NCBI GenBank assembly: GCA_020432595.1
Contig: JAGQGA010000396.1
Location: 1-5,482 of the forward strand
Direction of reading: 5' to 3'
Source of the DNA: Anaerolineales bacterium
GTDB lineage: Bacteria; Chloroflexota; Anaerolineae; Promineifilales; Promineifilaceae
DNA: 5,482 nucleotides
The notes beneath the pieces were generated by a model. The model was not told the origin of the DNA, ran no database searches, and saw nothing but the letters and a program-made list of their open reading frames with translations. The translations under genes were made by a program, and so were the position numbers. Shown piece by piece: positions 1-5,188 of this stretch (positions are counted from its first letter, which is position 1; every line of letters begins with the position of its first letter).

Positions 1-1257
1 GATTTGGGCAATGTGCAGATGGCGGGGACGGCGCTGCTGCTGCTGACGGAACGAGACGGGCGGCGCAGCGTCATTGTGTTAGCGGCCAGCGGGCAGGGGT
101 TGGAAAACGTGCTTTACCGACTGATTGACCTCATTCCGCTCAACGCCGATTACGCCTTGTCCGATTGCCTGCTGCAAGGGAATTTGGCGCTGTGCCCTAC
201 CCAAATTGCCGCCGAGCCAGTGGAGGCGGTGCTGGACACTAGCACCGATACCTCACCGCCGCCAGACAGCGGTGGCGAGTTGCCTTTGCCCAGCGGGGAA
301 ACGACAGATCAGGGCGAGATTGGGCTGGGGGAGACAAAAACGGCCGTTTTGCAAACCGGCGAACAACATAGCTGGGTCTACAACCAAGGCCCCGGCTTTA
401 TTGACATTGTCGTCGAATCCGCTGATTTTGATGCCGTTTTGGAAATTCTGGATCCTAGCGGCCAAACTTTGGACTACAGCGACCGAGGCTTTGCAGGCGA
501 TGGCGAGCAGTTGACAGGGGTAGAAATACCCGATGCTGACGACTATACCATTTTGATCAGTGCCTATGGCGACGGCAGCGGCAGCTATACCTTGACCGTA
601 AGCGAAGGCGAACCCCAAACTGGTGCCCAAATTGACACCATTTTGGTATATGGCGACGACAACGGTGAGCCGCTGGCTGGCGGCAGCACCAGCGTTGACC
701 AGTTAGCCGTGCTATTGGGCACTTCCTACCAAGTGACCACTTGGTTAGCTTCTCAGGACGGTTCACTGACTGCCGAAGCCTTGGCCGGACAAGATTTGCT
801 CATTTGGGATTCGGGCGATTATCGTCAAACCGATGGGCTTGCCGACCCCAGCGTCGAGGCGATTTTTCAATATCTGGACGGGGGCGGCCACCTGGTGGTG
901 ATGGGAGCCTCGCCTCCGCTGTTTGGAACAAGTGACCTGGCTCCGCTGGCAGATGTTGAACTGGTGGGGGATGATCCGTTGTTGACCAATGGCTTTACCC
1001 CCGGTGAGGTTATTGCGCTGACCCAAACCATTGATGCCATTGCCTCTGACATGCTTGAACCGAGTGCGAACGAGCATCTCTTTTTGCAGCGTGGGCCGAG
1101 CAGCGGCCAGCCGGGTGGCACAGTGGCATTGGCGGCGGTAGATGAATTGAATGGCACACATAGCGTCTTTTTGCTGCTACCCTTTTTTGCCCTGCCGGAA
1201 ACAGTCCAGCCACTGCTGCTGGAGAATGTAATGGGCTGGCTGAAGGGTGGTTTTTAA
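1..1257 (+). CDS. Secreted PPC-domain protein with C-terminal GATase-like domain (5' end outside window)
   Basis: The frame is open from the first base of the window and no start is visible, so this is the C-terminal 418 codons of a longer protein. Three parts can be seen. Codons 1-70 end with a segment (IVLAASGQGLENVLYRL ... GNLALC) whose family I cannot name. A short Pro/Ser/Thr-rich linker follows. Codons about 105-200 look like a pre-peptidase C-terminal (PPC) beta-sandwich: a Gly-rich start, W in HSWVYNQG, the FDAVLEILDPSG strand, and the closing GSYTLTV. The last ~200 codons (from DTILVYGDDNG) look like an alpha/beta domain of the class I glutamine-amidotransferase/DUF4350 type often found at the end of extracellular proteases, with DLLIWDSGDY, GGGHLVVMG and a closing LPFFALP...LLLENVMGWL. 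Extracellular location is inferred from the PPC domain. The catalytic part, if any, lies upstream of the window. The gene ends 3 nt before the response regulator, so the two are probably co-transcribed. Confidence 0.8.
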   Translation, partial: DLGNVQMAGTALLLLTERDGRRSVIVLAASGQGLENVLYRLIDLIPLNADYALSDCLLQGNLALCPTQIAAEPVEAVLDTSTDTSPPPDSGGELPLPSGETTDQGEIGLGETKTAVLQTGEQHSWVYNQGPGFIDIVVESADFDAVLEILDPSGQTLDYSDRGFAGDGEQLTGVEIPDADDYTILISAYGDGSGSYTLTVSEGEPQTGAQIDTILVYGDDNGEPLAGGSTSVDQLAVLLGTSYQVTTWLASQDGSLTAEALAGQDLLIWDSGDYRQTDGLADPSVEAIFQYLDGGGHLVVMGASPPLFGTSDLAPLADVELVGDDPLLTNGFTPGEVIALTQTIDAIASDMLEPSANEHLFLQRGPSSGQPGGTVALAAVDELNGTHSVFLLLPFFALPETVQPLLLENVMGWLKGGF

Positions 1258-1260
1258 CGC

Positions 1261-1947
1261 ATGGCAACGATTTTGCTGGTTGATGATGATGTGATGCTGA
1301 CCAGAGTGCTTTTTACCATCTTGCGGGGGGCGGGTCATACACCGCTGGTTGCCAATACGGCTGAGGATGGATTGAGCATGGCAATGGGTGAGAAGCCAGA
1401 TTTGCTGCTGCTGGATGTGATGGTGCCGAACATGGGGGGATGGGCGGTTTGTGAGCAGGTGCGCCGCTTTTCGCAGGTACCCATTATTTTTTTGACGGCG
1501 TTGGGCAATGCCGAAAATGTGGTTAAAGGGTTGGAGTTAGGTGGGGATGACTATATTGTCAAGCCGTTTGATGAGATGGTGCTGTTGGCGCGGGTGAAGG
1601 CACATTTGCGGCGCACAGAAACGGCCGTTTCCCGTTCCGATGTTTTTGTGTTTAGCGGGGGTGATCTGTTGGTGGACTTGCCCGGACACTTGGTTGAGGC
1701 CTACGGTGCGACGGTTGATTTGACCCCGCGTGAGTTTGAACTGCTGGCATACCTGGCACAAAACGCTGGTCGGGTGGTGACAGCCCAGGACTTGGTGCGC
1801 GAAGCATGGGGAATGGAAGACGAAGCGGCTGTTGACAACCTCAAACCTTACATCCACTATCTGCGCCGCAAGCTGGAAAAAGATTCCACCTCGCCGCGCT
1901 GGGTAACAACCGTGCGCGGCATTGGCTACCGTTTAGATACCGATTAA
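1261..1947 (+). CDS. OmpR/PhoB-family two-component response regulator
   Basis: A complete 228-aa transcriptional regulator of normal length for the family. The receiver domain spans residues about 3-115, with the acidic cluster D8-D9-D10, phosphoacceptor D52 (LLLLDVMVP), T79 and K101 (KPF), all in canonical spacing. A linker follows, then a winged helix-turn-helix from about 130 to 226 with TPREFELLAYLAQNAGRVV, a recognition-helix region around NLKPYIHYLRRKLE, and the closing TVRGIGYRL. Phosphorylation of D52 by a sensor kinase would be expected to promote dimerisation and DNA binding; this is family knowledge. No kinase is present in the window. The ATG lies 3 nt after the upstream stop, with a weak purine-rich stretch (AAGGGTGG at 1243-1250) as possible ribosome binding site. 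The linker residues T121-A122-V123 are encoded by one AACGGCCGTT palindrome. Target genes cannot be read from the sequence. Confidence 0.95.
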   Translation: MATILLVDDDVMLTRVLFTILRGAGHTPLVANTAEDGLSMAMGEKPDLLLLDVMVPNMGGWAVCEQVRRFSQVPIIFLTALGNAENVVKGLELGGDDYIVKPFDEMVLLARVKAHLRRTETAVSRSDVFVFSGGDLLVDLPGHLVEAYGATVDLTPREFELLAYLAQNAGRVVTAQDLVREAWGMEDEAAVDNLKPYIHYLRRKLEKDSTSPRWVTTVRGIGYRLDTD

Positions 1948-1953
1948 CTGTTT

Positions 1954-3132
1954 ATGAGCCAACCCGACATCATTTTTATTGTACTGGATACCCACCGTGC
2001 TGACCGGCTGGGGTGTTATGGGAATAAACGGCCGTTATCCCCCAACATAGACCAATTCGCCGCCAACGCCACCCTCTTTGAACACGCTGTTGCCCCCGCC
2101 CAATGGACCATCCCCAGCCACGCCGCCATGTTCAGCGGCCAATACCCTACCGTCCACCAAGTCACCCAATCCTCTCATGCCCTCAGCCCCGACCTGCCCC
2201 ACGTAGCCGAAGTGCTGCAAACGGCCGGTTATCAAACCGTTGGCTTTTGCAACAACCCCCTCGTGGGTATTCTGGACAATGGCTTCAAGCGCGGCTTTGA
2301 AACCTTTTACAACTACGGCGGAGCCATTCCCAACCTGCCGTCTAACCCTTCCCGCTTGCCTCGGCTACTGCAACCGCTGGCCGATGCCTACACCCGCTTT
2401 CTCCAGCGCATCTCCTATCCCATCCAAAACTTTTTTGGGCAGTCGGACTTAGCCTTTCGTCTCTCGCTCAACGCCTGGTTTACCCCGCTGTGGTCAAAAA
2501 TGGCAAACTTCAAGGGACAGAATGAGCGTTCGGTGCAGGACGTGGTGCGTTTTTTGCAGGCGCGGGAACGGGAATCCGACGGACGGCCGCTTTTTCTCTT
2601 TCTTAATCTAATGGAAACCCATCTGCCGTTTTGGCCGCCGGGGCCGTTTATTGATCAGGTGGCTCCCTATTTTCGCCACAGCAAAGAGGCGCGGGCGGTG
2701 TTGCAGCGGTGGAACCGCGAGGCATACCGTTGGGCGGCACCGCTGGCTGAGCCGCTGGGGGAACTGGAAGCACAGGTGCTAAGCGATCTTTATGATGCCG
2801 AAGTGGCGTACCAGGACAACTATTTGGGGGCACTGTTTGACTGCTTAAACGGCCGTTCCAATCACCCCAACACCCTCACCATCATCGTGGCCGATCATGG
2901 CGACGGGTTAGGCGAACACAGCTATTTCGGCCACAGCTTTGTTGCCTTTGAAGAGCTTGTCCACGTGCCGTTGCTGCTGCAATGGCCGCGCCAACTGCCG
3001 CAGTCACAGCGCATTGCCACACCCGTCAGCACCCGCCGCATTTTCCACACCATTTTAGACAGCATCGGTCGGCTGCCCCACGCTGCCCAGCGCCGACTCC
3101 ATATTGCCCACGGTGTAATCCGCCTGGTTTAG
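1954..3132 (+). CDS. Sulfatase-like hydrolase (alkaline phosphatase superfamily), 3'-truncated
   Basis: The N-terminus DIIFIVLDTHRADRLGCYG is the classic start of a sulfatase/phosphohydrolase domain, with D12 as metal ligand. The nucleophile site reads TIPSHAAMFSG, with T52 where true sulfatases have the formylglycine-forming Cys or Ser (CxPSR). A sulfatase activity is therefore doubtful, and a phosphoester or phosphotransfer role is possible. METHLPFWPP and AEVAYQDNYLGAL are typical central motifs. The second metal site is intact: D314-H315 in VADHGDGLGEH, then H327. Family-like sequence runs to FHTILDSIG (residue 372). The final 20 residues are simply the antisense of the CapA-like gene, so the real C-terminus is lost. 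Relatives are usually clearly longer than 392 aa. The ATG is 6 nt after the response-regulator stop with no evident Shine-Dalgarno, so translation probably depends on coupling. No signal peptide is seen, so the product is probably cytoplasmic unless exported another way. It may be non-functional. Confidence 0.85.
   Translation: MSQPDIIFIVLDTHRADRLGCYGNKRPLSPNIDQFAANATLFEHAVAPAQWTIPSHAAMFSGQYPTVHQVTQSSHALSPDLPHVAEVLQTAGYQTVGFCNNPLVGILDNGFKRGFETFYNYGGAIPNLPSNPSRLPRLLQPLADAYTRFLQRISYPIQNFFGQSDLAFRLSLNAWFTPLWSKMANFKGQNERSVQDVVRFLQARERESDGRPLFLFLNLMETHLPFWPPGPFIDQVAPYFRHSKEARAVLQRWNREAYRWAAPLAEPLGELEAQVLSDLYDAEVAYQDNYLGALFDCLNGRSNHPNTLTIIVADHGDGLGEHSYFGHSFVAFEELVHVPLLLQWPRQLPQSQRIATPVSTRRIFHTILDSIGRLPHAAQRRLHIAHGVIRLV
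3055..3072. other. Tail-to-tail junction of two truncated genes
   Basis: Family-like sequence of the plus-strand sulfatase ends at about 3069, and that of the minus-strand CapA-like gene ends at about 3064. Past these points each frame reads the other gene's antisense, stopping at 3132 (+) and 3055 (-). No terminator, repeat or mobile element marks the joint. Confidence 0.65.
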
Positions 3133-3930
3133 CTCGTCTACGATGTCGGCAAAGGGATAGGCCAGGTTGCCCAGGGTGAGATGGTAGCCAAGCGAGCGGT
3201 CGAGCATGATGTCACCAACGGCCGTTAACCAAACCAGCGGCTCTGGCTGCCACTCAGCCCGTAAAAGGTCGGCCAACCGCGCCGTTTCGTCGGCCAACTC
3301 CGGCGGTGCCAGCAGCGACCAACTTGCTTGCAGCGGATAGTCGGGGTCGGGGGGAAAACGGCCGTTTACCCGCAGCGCCCGCAGTTCCGGCACCATTTCC
3401 CGCCACAGTCGCACGGTAATATCCACGTGGCCGTTGGCGATTATCTCCTGCGCCGCCGCCAAATCCACCTCTTCCAGAGGCGCGGTAAACGGCACCGCCA
3501 GCGCCAGCGGTTCCTGCCACAGCAAAATGCCGCTGTCGTTATTCACCAGCCGCACATCGGCACCATCGTTTGCGGATGTGATTTGCCAGCCACGCTGGGT
3601 GGGGTGCTGGGAAACGGCCGTTTGCACCAATTCCACCCACTCCTCCGGCACCGCCAGCGTAATGGGCGGCAGGTTGGTGGCGGTGGGAATCGGAGTGATG
3701 GTGGGAATGACCGTGGGCGGCAGCGTTGATGTGGCCGTGGGCTGGGTCGTCGCGGTGGCCGTTGGCAAGGGCATAGGCGTTGGTACAGTTTGGCTGGTGG
3801 GCACGATGGTGGGAATAACGGCCGTTTCCTCCCCTCTCGCCCCACACCCTACTAAAATCAGCAAACAGTAAGCAGTAAACAATAAACAGTAAACAATGTC
3901 CGTGTTCGTCCGCGTTTGTCCGCGTCCCAT
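3055..3930 (-). CDS. CapA-like (PGA_cap) lipoprotein, 3'-truncated
   Basis: I start it at the ATG at 3930 because GGAGG lies 6 nt upstream and the ATG is 1 nt past the VanY stop. The in-frame ATG at 3969 would overlap VanY by 38 bp. The 291-aa product begins with a lipoprotein signal (hydrophobic YCLLFTAYCLLIL, lipobox LVGC, C29), so it is probably anchored outside the cytoplasmic membrane. A Pro/Thr linker reaches about residue 87. An unassigned region of ~140 residues follows (VPEEWVELVQTAV ... LLRAEWQPEP), perhaps a substrate-binding-like domain. The last ~58 residues open a PGA_cap metallophosphoesterase-like domain: TAVGDIMLDRSLGYH (GDIMLDR 239-245) and GNMESALGSVGQPTD (NMES 276-279). 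This domain normally continues for roughly 200 residues with further His/Asn motifs (such as LANNH). Here it stops after GQPTDAV at the junction with the sulfatase gene, so the product should be inactive. CapA relatives act in poly-gamma-glutamate or capsule metabolism, but many are of unknown role. Confidence 0.82.
   Translation of the reverse strand: MGRGQTRTNTDIVYCLLFTAYCLLILVGCGARGEETAVIPTIVPTSQTVPTPMPLPTATATTQPTATSTLPPTVIPTITPIPTATNLPPITLAVPEEWVELVQTAVSQHPTQRGWQITSANDGADVRLVNNDSGILLWQEPLALAVPFTAPLEEVDLAAAQEIIANGHVDITVRLWREMVPELRALRVNGRFPPDPDYPLQASWSLLAPPELADETARLADLLRAEWQPEPLVWLTAVGDIMLDRSLGYHLTLGNLAYPFADIVDELNQADYTVGNMESALGSVGQPTDAV
3861..3895. repeat. Tandem 7-bp repeat (five copies) encoding a signal-peptide core
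   Basis: Read on the plus strand, the units are GCAAACA, GTAAGCA, GTAAACA, ATAAACA and GTAAACA, consensus GTAAACA. Because 7 is not a multiple of 3, three units make a 7-residue protein period on the minus strand, seen as YCLLFTA then YCLLILV. This is the hydrophobic core of the lipoprotein signal peptide of the CapA-like gene. Confidence 0.8.
3898..3927. repeat. Tandem 10-bp repeat (three copies)
   Basis: Plus-strand units are GTCCGTGTTC, GTCCGCGTTT and GTCCGCGTCC. They abut the 7-bp array with only two bases between and encode the first residues of the CapA-like protein (GRGQTRTNTD). Similar CGCGGAC-rich repeats recur between genes in many environmental genomes, by my recollection, so this may be an intergenic repeat captured into a reading frame. 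Confidence 0.65.
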
Positions 3931-3931
3931 C

Positions 3932-4846
3932 TTATTCCTCCGGCACGCAAGGCTGGGGCAAATTGGCAAGCTGGTAAGCCGTCAACGTCTGGCCGCTTTC
4001 ATGCAGCGCGGTGGCAAGTTCCACCCCCACATAGCGAAAATGCCACGGTTCATAGAAAAAACCGGTAATGTCGCTGCCATCGCGGGGATAGCTGAGGGTG
4101 AAGCCAAAGCGGTGGGCGTTTTCGCCCAGCCACACCCCCTCGCTGGTCTGGTAAAAATAGGTGTGGAACTCGATGTCGGGCACGCCAACAATGTCGGGCA
4201 GTTCGGGAGAGCCAAAATCAACGGCCGTTCCCAACTGATGCTCGCTGTGGCCGGGTCGGGCGCTCAGAATTGCTGCCCGCTCCGGCTCCTTTTCCTGCCA
4301 TTTACGGTAGGCAATCTCCTGCTGGGCATAGCTGCGGTAGCCAGAAATAAGCTGCGGCTGCAGCCCCGCCGCCTGCATCTCGGCAATCATCGCCGCCAGC
4401 GGCTCGGCCGCCACCTGGCGCAGTTGGTTGGGGTACCCCTTGGTAACAGCAAACGGCAGCAGGTCGTTAAGCGATACCAAATCCCCCGGCGCATAGTCAC
4501 GGCTGAGGCTGTACTGCTGGGTAACGATGGTGAGTAAATCATCTTGCGGCACGCGCTGGGTGCAACTGGCAATAGGGGTGGCGGTTATGGTGGCAGTGGG
4601 AACGGGGGTGGCGGTTTGCGTGGGGGTGGCGATATGAAACTGGGTGGGAACGGCCGTTATGGTGGGGGGAAGCGGAACGGCCGTTGATGTAGGCAAGACT
4701 ATGTGAGGGGTGATAGGCGTAGGGAGTGGGGCAGTAGTGGCAACAAGGGTAGCTGTGGAGTCAGGGAGGGCGGCCACGGTGTTGGATGTTTGCGGCTGGC
4801 ACCCACCCAGCAGCAGCAGTAGCAAAACAATGATAGCAGTTTTCAT
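3932..4846 (-). CDS. VanY-type D-alanyl-D-alanine carboxypeptidase lipoprotein (peptidase M15B)
   Basis: A complete 304-aa protein predicted to trim the terminal D-Ala from peptidoglycan stem peptides. It starts with a short signal peptide (MKTAIIVLLLLLLGGC) whose lipobox cysteine is C16, so it is probably membrane-anchored outside the cytoplasm. Residues ~20-93 form a Pro/Thr/Val linker. The M15B domain covers ~100-290: SGYRSY at 168-173, the zinc motif PGHSEHQLGTAVD with H203 and D210, and EPWHFRYVG with E266 (catalytic) and H269 (third zinc ligand). All expected catalytic residues are present, so it should be active. Its ATG overlaps the TGA of the upstream antitoxin-like gene (ATGA), indicating translational coupling. 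Its stop is 1 nt before the CapA-like start, with that gene's GGAGG inside the VanY end. Three AACGGCCGTT copies lie in it; one encodes T-A-V just before zinc ligand D210. A resistance role is not implied, since no van regulators or ligase are nearby. Confidence 0.92.
   Translation of the reverse strand: MKTAIIVLLLLLLGGCQPQTSNTVAALPDSTATLVATTAPLPTPITPHIVLPTSTAVPLPPTITAVPTQFHIATPTQTATPVPTATITATPIASCTQRVPQDDLLTIVTQQYSLSRDYAPGDLVSLNDLLPFAVTKGYPNQLRQVAAEPLAAMIAEMQAAGLQPQLISGYRSYAQQEIAYRKWQEKEPERAAILSARPGHSEHQLGTAVDFGSPELPDIVGVPDIEFHTYFYQTSEGVWLGENAHRFGFTLSYPRDGSDITGFFYEPWHFRYVGVELATALHESGQTLTAYQLANLPQPCVPEE
3937..3941 (-). promoter_or_regulatory. Ribosome binding site deciding the CapA-like start
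   Basis: On the minus strand this reads GGAGG, 6 nt upstream of the ATG at 3930 and inside the last codons of VanY. It is the best Shine-Dalgarno in the window. It favours the 3930 start over the in-frame ATG at 3969, which would add 13 polar residues before the signal peptide. Confidence 0.75.
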
Positions 4847-5079
4847 AGAGTGGTGTTTTGCTTCCGCTTTGCCATTTTTTCATATGCTTTCCATTCGATG
4901 TAGTCATCCCATTGGTCAAAATCCTCATCAGCAGCGGTCTCAATGTTTTGCGAGAATTCATCCCATGTTTGGGCATATTTCTGTTCATACAAACGAATCT
5001 TTTCATTGATAGCATGGGAACTAGCCAGATATTCTGCCATCAACCAAGAAGCTACATTTTGCTTTTGAATGGTAATCAT
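4843..5079 (-). CDS. Small acidic protein resembling TumE/DUF6516-associated antitoxins
   Basis: A 78-aa protein starting at an ATG preceded by GGGAGA about 6 nt upstream. The C-terminal half, with EKIRLYEQKYAQTWDEF and then DFDQWDDYIEWKAYE, matches from memory the conserved ending of small antitoxins that sit next to DUF6516/TumE-type toxins. That match is recall, not a search result. It looks mostly alpha-helical and rich in Asp, Glu, Gln and Lys, with no signal peptide or membrane segment. No toxin-like partner lies on either side: downstream is VanY (overlapping by 4 nt, ATGA) and upstream is the divergent pyrF. Composition is about 40% GC against 57-63% in VanY, and no copy of the AACGGCCGTT palindrome lies in it; both suggest horizontal acquisition. 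It is the first gene of the minus-strand unit and sits behind a good promoter, so it may be the product of the regulated transcript. It could instead be an unrelated small hypothetical protein. Confidence 0.7.
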   Translation of the reverse strand: MITIQKQNVASWLMAEYLASSHAINEKIRLYEQKYAQTWDEFSQNIETAADEDFDQWDDYIEWKAYEKMAKRKQNTTL

Positions 5080-5085
5080 CTTTTA

Positions 5086-5091
5086 TCTCCC
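5086..5091 (-). promoter_or_regulatory. Ribosome binding site of the antitoxin-like gene
   Basis: The minus strand reads GGGAGA, with 6 nt between it and the ATG ending at 5079. It supports this start and hence the reality of this small gene. Confidence 0.65.
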
Positions 5092-5104
5092 AAAGATTTG
5101 CCCC

Positions 5105-5110
5105 ATTATA
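5105..5110 (-). promoter_or_regulatory. -10 element of the antitoxin/VanY/CapA unit
   Basis: On the minus strand the hexamer reads TATAAT, a perfect sigma-70 consensus. Transcription should begin near 5098, giving a leader of about 20 nt that contains the GGGAGA ribosome binding site at 5086-5091. The expected -35 position (about 5128-5133) reads TGAGAA, a poor match, so the promoter may be weak or need an activator. The Fur-like palindrome occupies this -35 and spacer area. Confidence 0.6.
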
Positions 5111-5118
5111 CTTGAAAA

Positions 5119-5133
5119 TGACAATGATTCTCA
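5119..5133. promoter_or_regulatory. Fur-family-like operator (7-1-7 inverted repeat)
   Basis: The site TGACAATGATTCTCA matches 12 of the 14 defined positions of the Fur 7-1-7 box TGATAATNATTATCA. Its two arms are inverted repeats with one mismatch, and symmetry extends to 8-1-8 at 5118-5134. It lies 8 bp upstream of the minus-strand TATAAT and covers the -35 and spacer, the usual place for repression. Which member (Fur, Zur, PerR, Mur) might bind cannot be told from sequence. It is about 55 bp from the nearest pyrF promoter element, so pyrF control is less likely. Confidence 0.45.
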
Positions 5134-5188
5134 TAGGGGATGACTGTAGCAAAAACGGCCGTTAATGCCAACGCAGTAACCGAGGCTT

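Follow-up and report, generated by a model that had tools for sequence, protein, structure and literature searches.

The stretch of DNA studied here (the window, 5,482 nt, positions 1 to 5,482 of contig JAGQGA010000396.1 from the Anaerolineales bacterium assembly GCA_020432595.1) carries twelve exact copies of the 10-bp palindrome AACGGCCGTT, and in related genomes this motif behaves like the highly iterated palindromes (HIPs) of cyanobacteria, with a different sequence and in a different phylum, which makes it a member of the HIP kind and not HIP1 itself. The explanation that we prefer, quite possible if still short of probable, is that of a DNA word iterated throughout a lineage, which would function as HIP1 does and be kept as a DNA landmark in about half of the genomes of one Chloroflexota order. 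In the relatives, the sites are found genome-wide with a near-random spacing, in genes as well as between them, and they are frozen at synonymous positions in one genus-like group. Moreover, they come close to saturation for some of the peptides that a site can encode, and they are linked to an excess of Thr-Ala-Val and Asn-Gly-Arg, and of Ser-Ala-Glu with an alternate form of the word.

The copies in the window start at positions 339, 1620, 2027, 2848, 3217, 3357, 3613, 3817, 4220, 4649, 4676 and 5154. Two hundred dinucleotide shuffles of the window gave zero copies, and the numbers expected from Markov models are about 0.01 (order 1), 0.02 (order 2) and 0.11 (order 3). An original prediction made from this DNA had put the twelve copies at more than a thousandfold above chance; copies and positions were confirmed, and the excess amounts to about 100- to 1000-fold depending on the Markov model. 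Twelve of the 16 CGGCCG hexamers of the window sit within AACGGCCGTT, and its inner palindrome ACGGCCGT shows an observed to expected ratio (O/E) of 80 under an order-2 model in this small sample. As had also been predicted, the copies occur in several contexts and in all three codon phases: eleven of them are coding, in genes of both strands, and encode Thr-Ala-Val (eight), Asn-Gly-Arg (two) or x-Arg-Pro (one), and the remaining one is intergenic. For the genome that contains the window, we infer the genome-wide count from its relatives.

Distribution and unit of the palindrome

When 84,980 species genomes were scanned for three copies of AACGGCCGTT separated by no more than 12 bases, a strict pattern that picks up only very dense genomes or arrays, six stretches were returned. 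Five of them belong to three Chloroflexota metagenome-assembled genomes (MAGs; BJ8, Go_SlAct_bin_68 and Anaerolinea sp. CH6) and the sixth to the cyanobacterium Planktothricoides sp. SR001. The cyanobacterial match (L026) was discarded as a local tandem repeat in a genome with only 52 copies in 7.1 Mb; the array lies at positions 6114-6218, and its unit has AACGGCCGTT as part of a longer inverted repeat. Among 396 genomes sampled from the class, 19 hold 396-5060 copies of AACGGCCGTT, three hold 79-149 and the other 374 have 29 at most, and all 22 genomes with at least 79 copies belong to one order. In this regard, genome-wide counts, a check proposed in the original prediction, were compared with the reversed word, and Markov models were applied to 30-260 kb per genome; both gave values far above expectation in the relatives, for which an enrichment limited to the window can be dismissed. 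Within the 56 genomes of that order, 29 have 361-5060 copies, six have 51-149 and 21 have 4-29, and the reversed word used as a control ranges from 0 to 157 copies per genome, the maximum corresponding to a genome (G403) with another iterated palindrome. Densities of ACGGCCGT between 0.42 and 2.09 per kb were obtained in 30 of the 56 genomes, reaching 15,176 copies in 7.5 Mb, which agrees in the relatives with the HIP1-like scale initially proposed; 28 of these 30 site-rich genomes exceed 0.5 per kb, the exceptions being G155 (0.42) and G401 (0.44). In a wider sample, with 400 genomes of the phylum among which three belong to the order, no genome outside the order came near the 1.06 copies per kb of WCGGCCGW found in G391, the highest outside count being 1772 (G041, 0.41 per kb, with 628 for the control) and the ratio to the control staying below 6 throughout. 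In the same phylum, G514, G447, G465, G748 and other Chloroflexota have 1 to 10 copies of WCGGCCGW vs 859 to 1468 of the control, as if the word were strongly avoided. The DNA of the window itself finds matches in 23 of the 23 genomes searched, which were picked for high or intermediate palindrome counts, the best one being 74% identical across the sulfatase in G371.

The top palindromic 8-mer in nine site-rich relatives is ACGGCCGT, at 29-68 times the order-2 Markov expectation (30-260 kb each). The outer A..T pair that extends it to 10 bp is present in 12 of 12 cases in the window, in 46 of 57 in G391 and in 56 of 66 in G376, and it is less common elsewhere: G003 has it in 122 of 525 cases, and G002 in 22 of 392, fewer than the 62 with an outer C..G. 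Other members of the order use different flanks: G098 contains 7668 copies of TCGGCCGA in 5.1 Mb instead of ACGGCCGT, the same word occurs 12 times in 10 kb of G400, G403 has 3665 copies of TGCCGGCA in 4.0 Mb (O/E of 32 in 37 kb), and in G155 the CGGCCG hexamer itself, surrounded by various flanks, is 7-fold over-represented (29 kb). G098, G400 and G403 thus replace the main palindrome with an alternate one, as relatives do in the HIP class. Altogether, the unit common to most forms in the order is the CGGCCG core with lineage-specific flanks. Because the outer pairs differ by lineage while the core is common, a reader of 10 bp would be limited to the window and its closest analogues, where that length fits, and reading of the full 10 bp in every case finds no support in the relatives, whose constant unit is ACGGCCGT or CGGCCG and whose outermost, and sometimes next, pair varies by lineage.

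Some genomes depart from this picture. G071 has 549 copies of ACGGCCGT and 646 of TCGGCCGA vs 145 and 138 of the reversed words, only about 1.4-1.6 times the Markov expectation, and the group around it shows at most a mild excess of the two words. G339, nested among site-rich genomes, contains 886 copies of TGCCGGCA in 4.7 Mb, yet just one in the 16 kb sampled, which could reflect a mixed or patchy bin. In G185, GCGGCCGC appears five times in 8.4 kb (L180; O/E of 30, small sample), possibly as a further flank variant of the CGGCCG core.

A target in the DNA and its conservation

That selection or a biased process acts on DNA rather than on protein, as first suggested for the window, is supported by the location of the sites. 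With gene calls restricted to long open reading frames (ORFs), G003 has 2.02 sites per kb in called genes vs 2.00 elsewhere and G098 has 1.54 vs 1.55, and the densities are lower outside genes in the other samples. The spacing of the sites is near-random in nine site-rich genomes and G098, where the coefficient of variation (CV) is 0.79-1.07 and no regular spacing was seen, and the variance to mean ratio of site counts in 5-kb windows of five genomes is 0.61-1.70. On the protein side, sites encode 87-99% of the codable Thr-Ala-Val, 71-92% of the [DHNY]-Gly-Arg and 47-78% of the x-Arg-Pro-[CFLSWY] peptides in the nine site-rich genomes. In G098 the sites encode 3 of 27 Thr-Ala-Val, 1 of 48 [DHNY]-Gly-Arg and 1 of 38 x-Arg-Pro-[CFLSWY], and the corresponding figures in G071 are 16 of 27, 2 of 85 and 0 of 65, the share for Thr-Ala-Val not being low there. 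Moreover, relative to the product of the amino-acid frequencies, Thr-Ala-Val is 4.7-11-fold and Asn-Gly-Arg 3.6-9-fold over-represented, as computed on about 8,000-72,000 codons each, and Thr-Ala-Val is still 2.7-4.4 times the value expected from dipeptide frequencies that contain the sites themselves. In G071 these ratios are 0.88 for Thr-Ala-Val and 0.99 for Asn-Gly-Arg, with Asp-Gly-Arg at 2.5 without sites, and in G098 it is Ser-Ala-Glu, encoded by TCGGCCGA, that rises to 6.8.

Conservation at orthologous positions, another of the checks proposed at the outset, proved to be beyond the neutral expectation in the relatives, as described for the HIP class. Eight genome pairs with 76-92% DNA identity keep 83-100% of their sites, and 13-59% of 8-mers that are not sites and have the same GC content. 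Fourfold-degenerate third bases in seven pairs, made from six genomes of one genus-like group and with 12-59 sites per pair, are 96-100% identical inside the sites vs 51-83% outside, and for codon ACG alone the values are 89-100% vs 41-75%, rarer codons offering few cases. In rpoB, the 95 ACGGCCGT sites of 50 genomes are confined to 11 columns; the conserved peptide TGRPL is encoded by a site in 17 of 23 site-rich vs 0 of 16 site-poor genomes, and HYGRI in 22 of 23 vs 2 of 18, the site-poor rows excluding six genomes whose palindromes are alternate or mixed. A nine-way alignment of the regulator and sulfatase region gives a more local view, with only one of the three window sites common to all nine sequences and two shared sites in the response regulator that belong to the G002 group alone. 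The site-rich condition also follows the phylogeny: in a FastTree tree of rpoB from 50 genomes, which omits five of the 56 without an rpoB match and one with only a short fragment, a label cut at 0.4 per kb (so that G155, G285 and G401 count as rich) requires 5 changes vs 17.1 when shuffled, and none of 500 shuffles was as low. G339 is site-poor within the site-rich part of this tree.

Some phages, not necessarily all, carry the word as well. When viral contigs were searched for pairs of copies within 30 bases, 25 stretches came up, several of them short and all selected for carrying the motif, of which 16 have at least 0.8 copies of ACGGCCGT per kb (up to 3.7) and nine are below that density. 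When 20 proteins from six of these stretches were compared with PHROGs, 11 had a match and nine had none. Three stretches, L008, L018 and L025, supplied virion proteins, namely portal, head protease and tape measure. Less specific matches came from L002 (endolysin-type domain, FtsK-like, ParA-like and ATPase) and L001 (DnaC-like loader), and the single protein tested from L009 had no PHROGs match. In 11 viral groups, some with only one such peptide, Thr-Ala-Val is site-coded in 78-100% of the cases.

Candidate readers and competing explanations

The closest known parallel is HIP1, or GCGATCGC, of cyanobacteria, where alternate HIPs also exist, with frequencies of about 500-2500 per million bases and, for HIP1, one-off words whose deviations concentrate at the end positions, according to the work that explains them by a core methyltransferase and a repair favouring flanks that create G-methyl-C (Elhai 2015, PMC4390886); the function of HIP1 is presented as unsettled in that and another paper (PMC4390886, PMC6604393). 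Among the features of that class, the relatives of the window show a genome-wide excess over Markov models, a frequency in the same range, alternates and orthologous conservation. The likeness extends to a GC-rich palindrome of 8 bp, with similar density, genic and intergenic, and conserved beyond neutrality, and to alternates that retain the core and exchange flanks, for which TCGATCGA offers a comparison. The differences lie in the CGGCCG core, the phylum, the 10-bp extension of some lineages and the mixed flanks of another, as well as in the absence of a universal methyltransferase in two families searched, the dense sites of some phage contigs and the excess of coded peptides measured here. 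HIP1 proper was rejected as an identification, since both sequence and host differ. The GGCC target of M.Ssp6803II from Synechocystis is contained in the core; loss of this N4-methylation mark was followed by a reduced UV tolerance and less DNA in suppressor strains (PMC6560206), and unlike that case a universal PF00145 or PF01555 enzyme was not found here, the best-conserved PF01555 group being present in 12 of 56 genomes. Avoidance of a restriction site, seen as under-representation, does not apply to the site-rich genomes, where the palindrome is over-represented. The occurrence of the same 10 letters within a 14-bp site of the Thermus regulator TTHA0973 was taken as a coincidence. No description of the motif as an iterated palindrome appeared in the literature searched, which included few subscription papers and no bioRxiv preprints, in line with the initial impression that it was undescribed. 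Selection on HIP1 has reportedly been addressed by Xu, Lawrence and Durand in 2018, as cited in PMC6604393.

Two usual families of cytosine methyltransferases were searched for a possible reader. Of the 21 site-rich genomes tested for PF00145, 8 gave no match, and for PF01555 the best E-value exceeded 1e-10 in 6 of the 30 site-rich genomes, keeping in mind that MAGs may be incomplete. In G366, which contains 14,867 sites, PF00145 finds nothing and the best PF01555 E-value is 4.6e-4. The best-conserved PF01555 group, with at least 70% identity in its 12 genomes, two of which are site-poor, carries a TSPPY motif, presumably indicative of N4-cytosine modification, and has RsrI and others as nearest solved structures. 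A universal m5C methyltransferase, a universal PF01555 enzyme and this TSPPY group were all rejected, as none of them tracks the sites across genomes. The solitary methyltransferase initially imagined thus finds no support in PF00145 and PF01555, the two families to which the search was limited. The number of PF01555 matches is 19-27 per genome in G002, G399, G303, G405, G238 and G248, with two in the related G366 and four in G350.

Under the landmark reading, a symmetric and probably dimeric reader of double-stranded DNA would bind CGGCCG together with flanks that vary by lineage, and both the cells and the phages replicating in them would gain from having a site every 0.5-1 kb or so. Such a landmark would most likely serve in DNA modification, repair or recombination, near-misses would turn into sites, and decayed sites would be lost from the population; the present variants can be read as a core that came first and flanks that came later. 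We favour a palindrome reader other than the PF00145 and PF01555 enzymes, with sites that selection would retain for DNA maintenance, because those families are missing or weak in several site-rich genomes and the A..T, T..A and outer C..G flanks do not create G-methyl-C with the outer C. A more ambitious version, conceivable and held with less confidence, is that a reader of double-stranded DNA, for which the CGGCCG core is invariant and the flanks can evolve, wrote the palindrome into the chromosomes and proteomes of much of the order, and into some phages, with no need of a conserved cytosine methyltransferase, as a second and independent HIP system. Several points weigh against a landmark of use to the cell. 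No reader protein has been found in the two families, and a neutral biased repair could produce an identical pattern, which leaves the benefit hypothetical. One-off words that deviate at an inner position show just a mild depletion (55 observed vs about 98 expected in G003), so conversion of near-misses is incomplete. One-off deviations fall at end positions in site-rich genomes (A1T at 2.8-12.5 times in the six best sampled), and G098 shows no excess at the ends; the pattern does not discriminate, since the site-poor G071 also deviates mostly there (A1G 2.9, A1T 1.9). A shared column proves little by itself, because one TCGGCCGA column of rpoB is common to 21 genomes of both the site-rich and the site-poor kind, and the viral stretches were chosen for their motif. 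Finally, G339 and the G071 group, inside or beside the clade, do without the word, which is dispensable over evolutionary time.

The main rival, somewhat doubtful in our view, is a biased repair or conversion without any benefit, in which a system guided by mismatches or modification resolves mismatches near CGGCCG toward the longer palindrome and sites are a mere by-product, a model published for HIPs (PMC4390886). It would account for the near-random spacing, the saturation of codable peptides and a peptide excess that looks as though imposed on proteins. In its published form, however, it needs a methyltransferase and flanks making G-methyl-C, and what we find are A..T, T..A and outer C..G pairs, both usual methyltransferase families missing or weak in several site-rich genomes, and the mild depletion of inner one-off words just mentioned. 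Other short iterated signals, namely DNA uptake sequences and Chi sites, also occur about once per kb or few kb; unlike the word described here, they are not known to be palindromic. A Chi-like mark of self, where the palindrome would switch a helicase-nuclease and so protect or recombine broken ends of chromosome and phage DNA, is consistent with the near-random spacing and with some phage contigs that match or exceed the density of the hosts counted, contigs that were motif-selected in the first place, and we consider it improbable. Slightly less credit is given to a sequence maintained by preferential transformation among kin, for which a density like that of uptake sequences and the strong conservation of sites would speak, and for which sites in structural genes of phages are unexpected. 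A site for chromosome organisation or a nucleoid protein would fit a genome-wide palindrome at 0.4-2 per kb and seems less probable still, the spacing being near-random instead of regular and some phages having the word too. An artefact of composition, codon usage or protein repeats is taken as refuted by the reversed-motif controls, the Markov models, synonymous shuffles and the comparison of codons inside and outside the sites.

A palindrome of this kind would offer a second natural case of the HIP puzzle outside cyanobacteria, in which flank swaps, site-rich genomes without a match to the usual methyltransferase families and phage contigs separate hypotheses that HIP1 alone cannot, such as methylation-guided repair, selection of landmarks and self-marking. 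If a second and independent system of this kind is real, the natural series of 6-, 8- and 10-bp variants would let the reader be found by co-variation. The suggestion that a process at the DNA level sets peptide frequencies across a proteome also matters for comparative genomics, codon analysis and the matching of phages with hosts.

Genes of the window and minor observations

The window begins with a gene open at its 5' end (1..1257, plus strand) without a Pfam match, which holds the site at 339..348 (Thr-Ala-Val). It is followed on the same strand by an OmpR-type response regulator (1261..1947; PF00072 and PF00486), whose Thr-Ala-Val site at 1620..1629 has a ACGGCCGT counterpart in only one (G319) of the eight aligned relatives, and by a sulfatase (1954..3132; PF00884) with two sites: the one at 2027..2036 (Lys-Arg-Pro) is absent from all eight relatives and present in the window alone, and the one at 2848..2857 (Asn-Gly-Arg) shares its inner ACGGCCGT with all eight, the outer bases being different. 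On the minus strand, a PGA_cap-like gene (3055..3969), which matches positions 2-57 of the 255 of PF09587 and lacks the C-terminal part of the domain, contains sites for Thr-Ala-Val at 3217..3226, 3613..3622 and 3817..3826 and for Asn-Gly-Arg at 3357..3366, and a VanY-type carboxypeptidase gene (3932..4846; PF02557) has three more for Thr-Ala-Val at 4220..4229, 4649..4658 and 4676..4685. The intergenic site (5154..5163) lies upstream of what is likely the start of pyrF at the end of the window, a label suggested by the translation of a fragment without a Pfam match.

Strongly over-represented words that are not palindromes were noticed in G371 (L133-L139, ACGCACTA and AGTGCGTA) and in G071 (L160-L169, AATTAGGA and AGGAATTA), which suggests tandem or dispersed repeats. 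Similarly, stretches of about 50-120 bp in G002 (L142, at 9541-9661, 16869-16947 and 19760-19818) match many places in four relatives, like dispersed repeats. Within the window, the sulfatase and PGA_cap-like genes converge tail to tail at 3055-3135 and both look shortened. Matches to the sulfatase and to the PGA_cap side lie on separate contigs in G002, G366, G238 and G258, the former ending at about 3053-3091 and the latter starting at about 3062-3084. A rearrangement or an assembly chimera at 3055-3135 is possible, and the palindrome is found on both sides of it.

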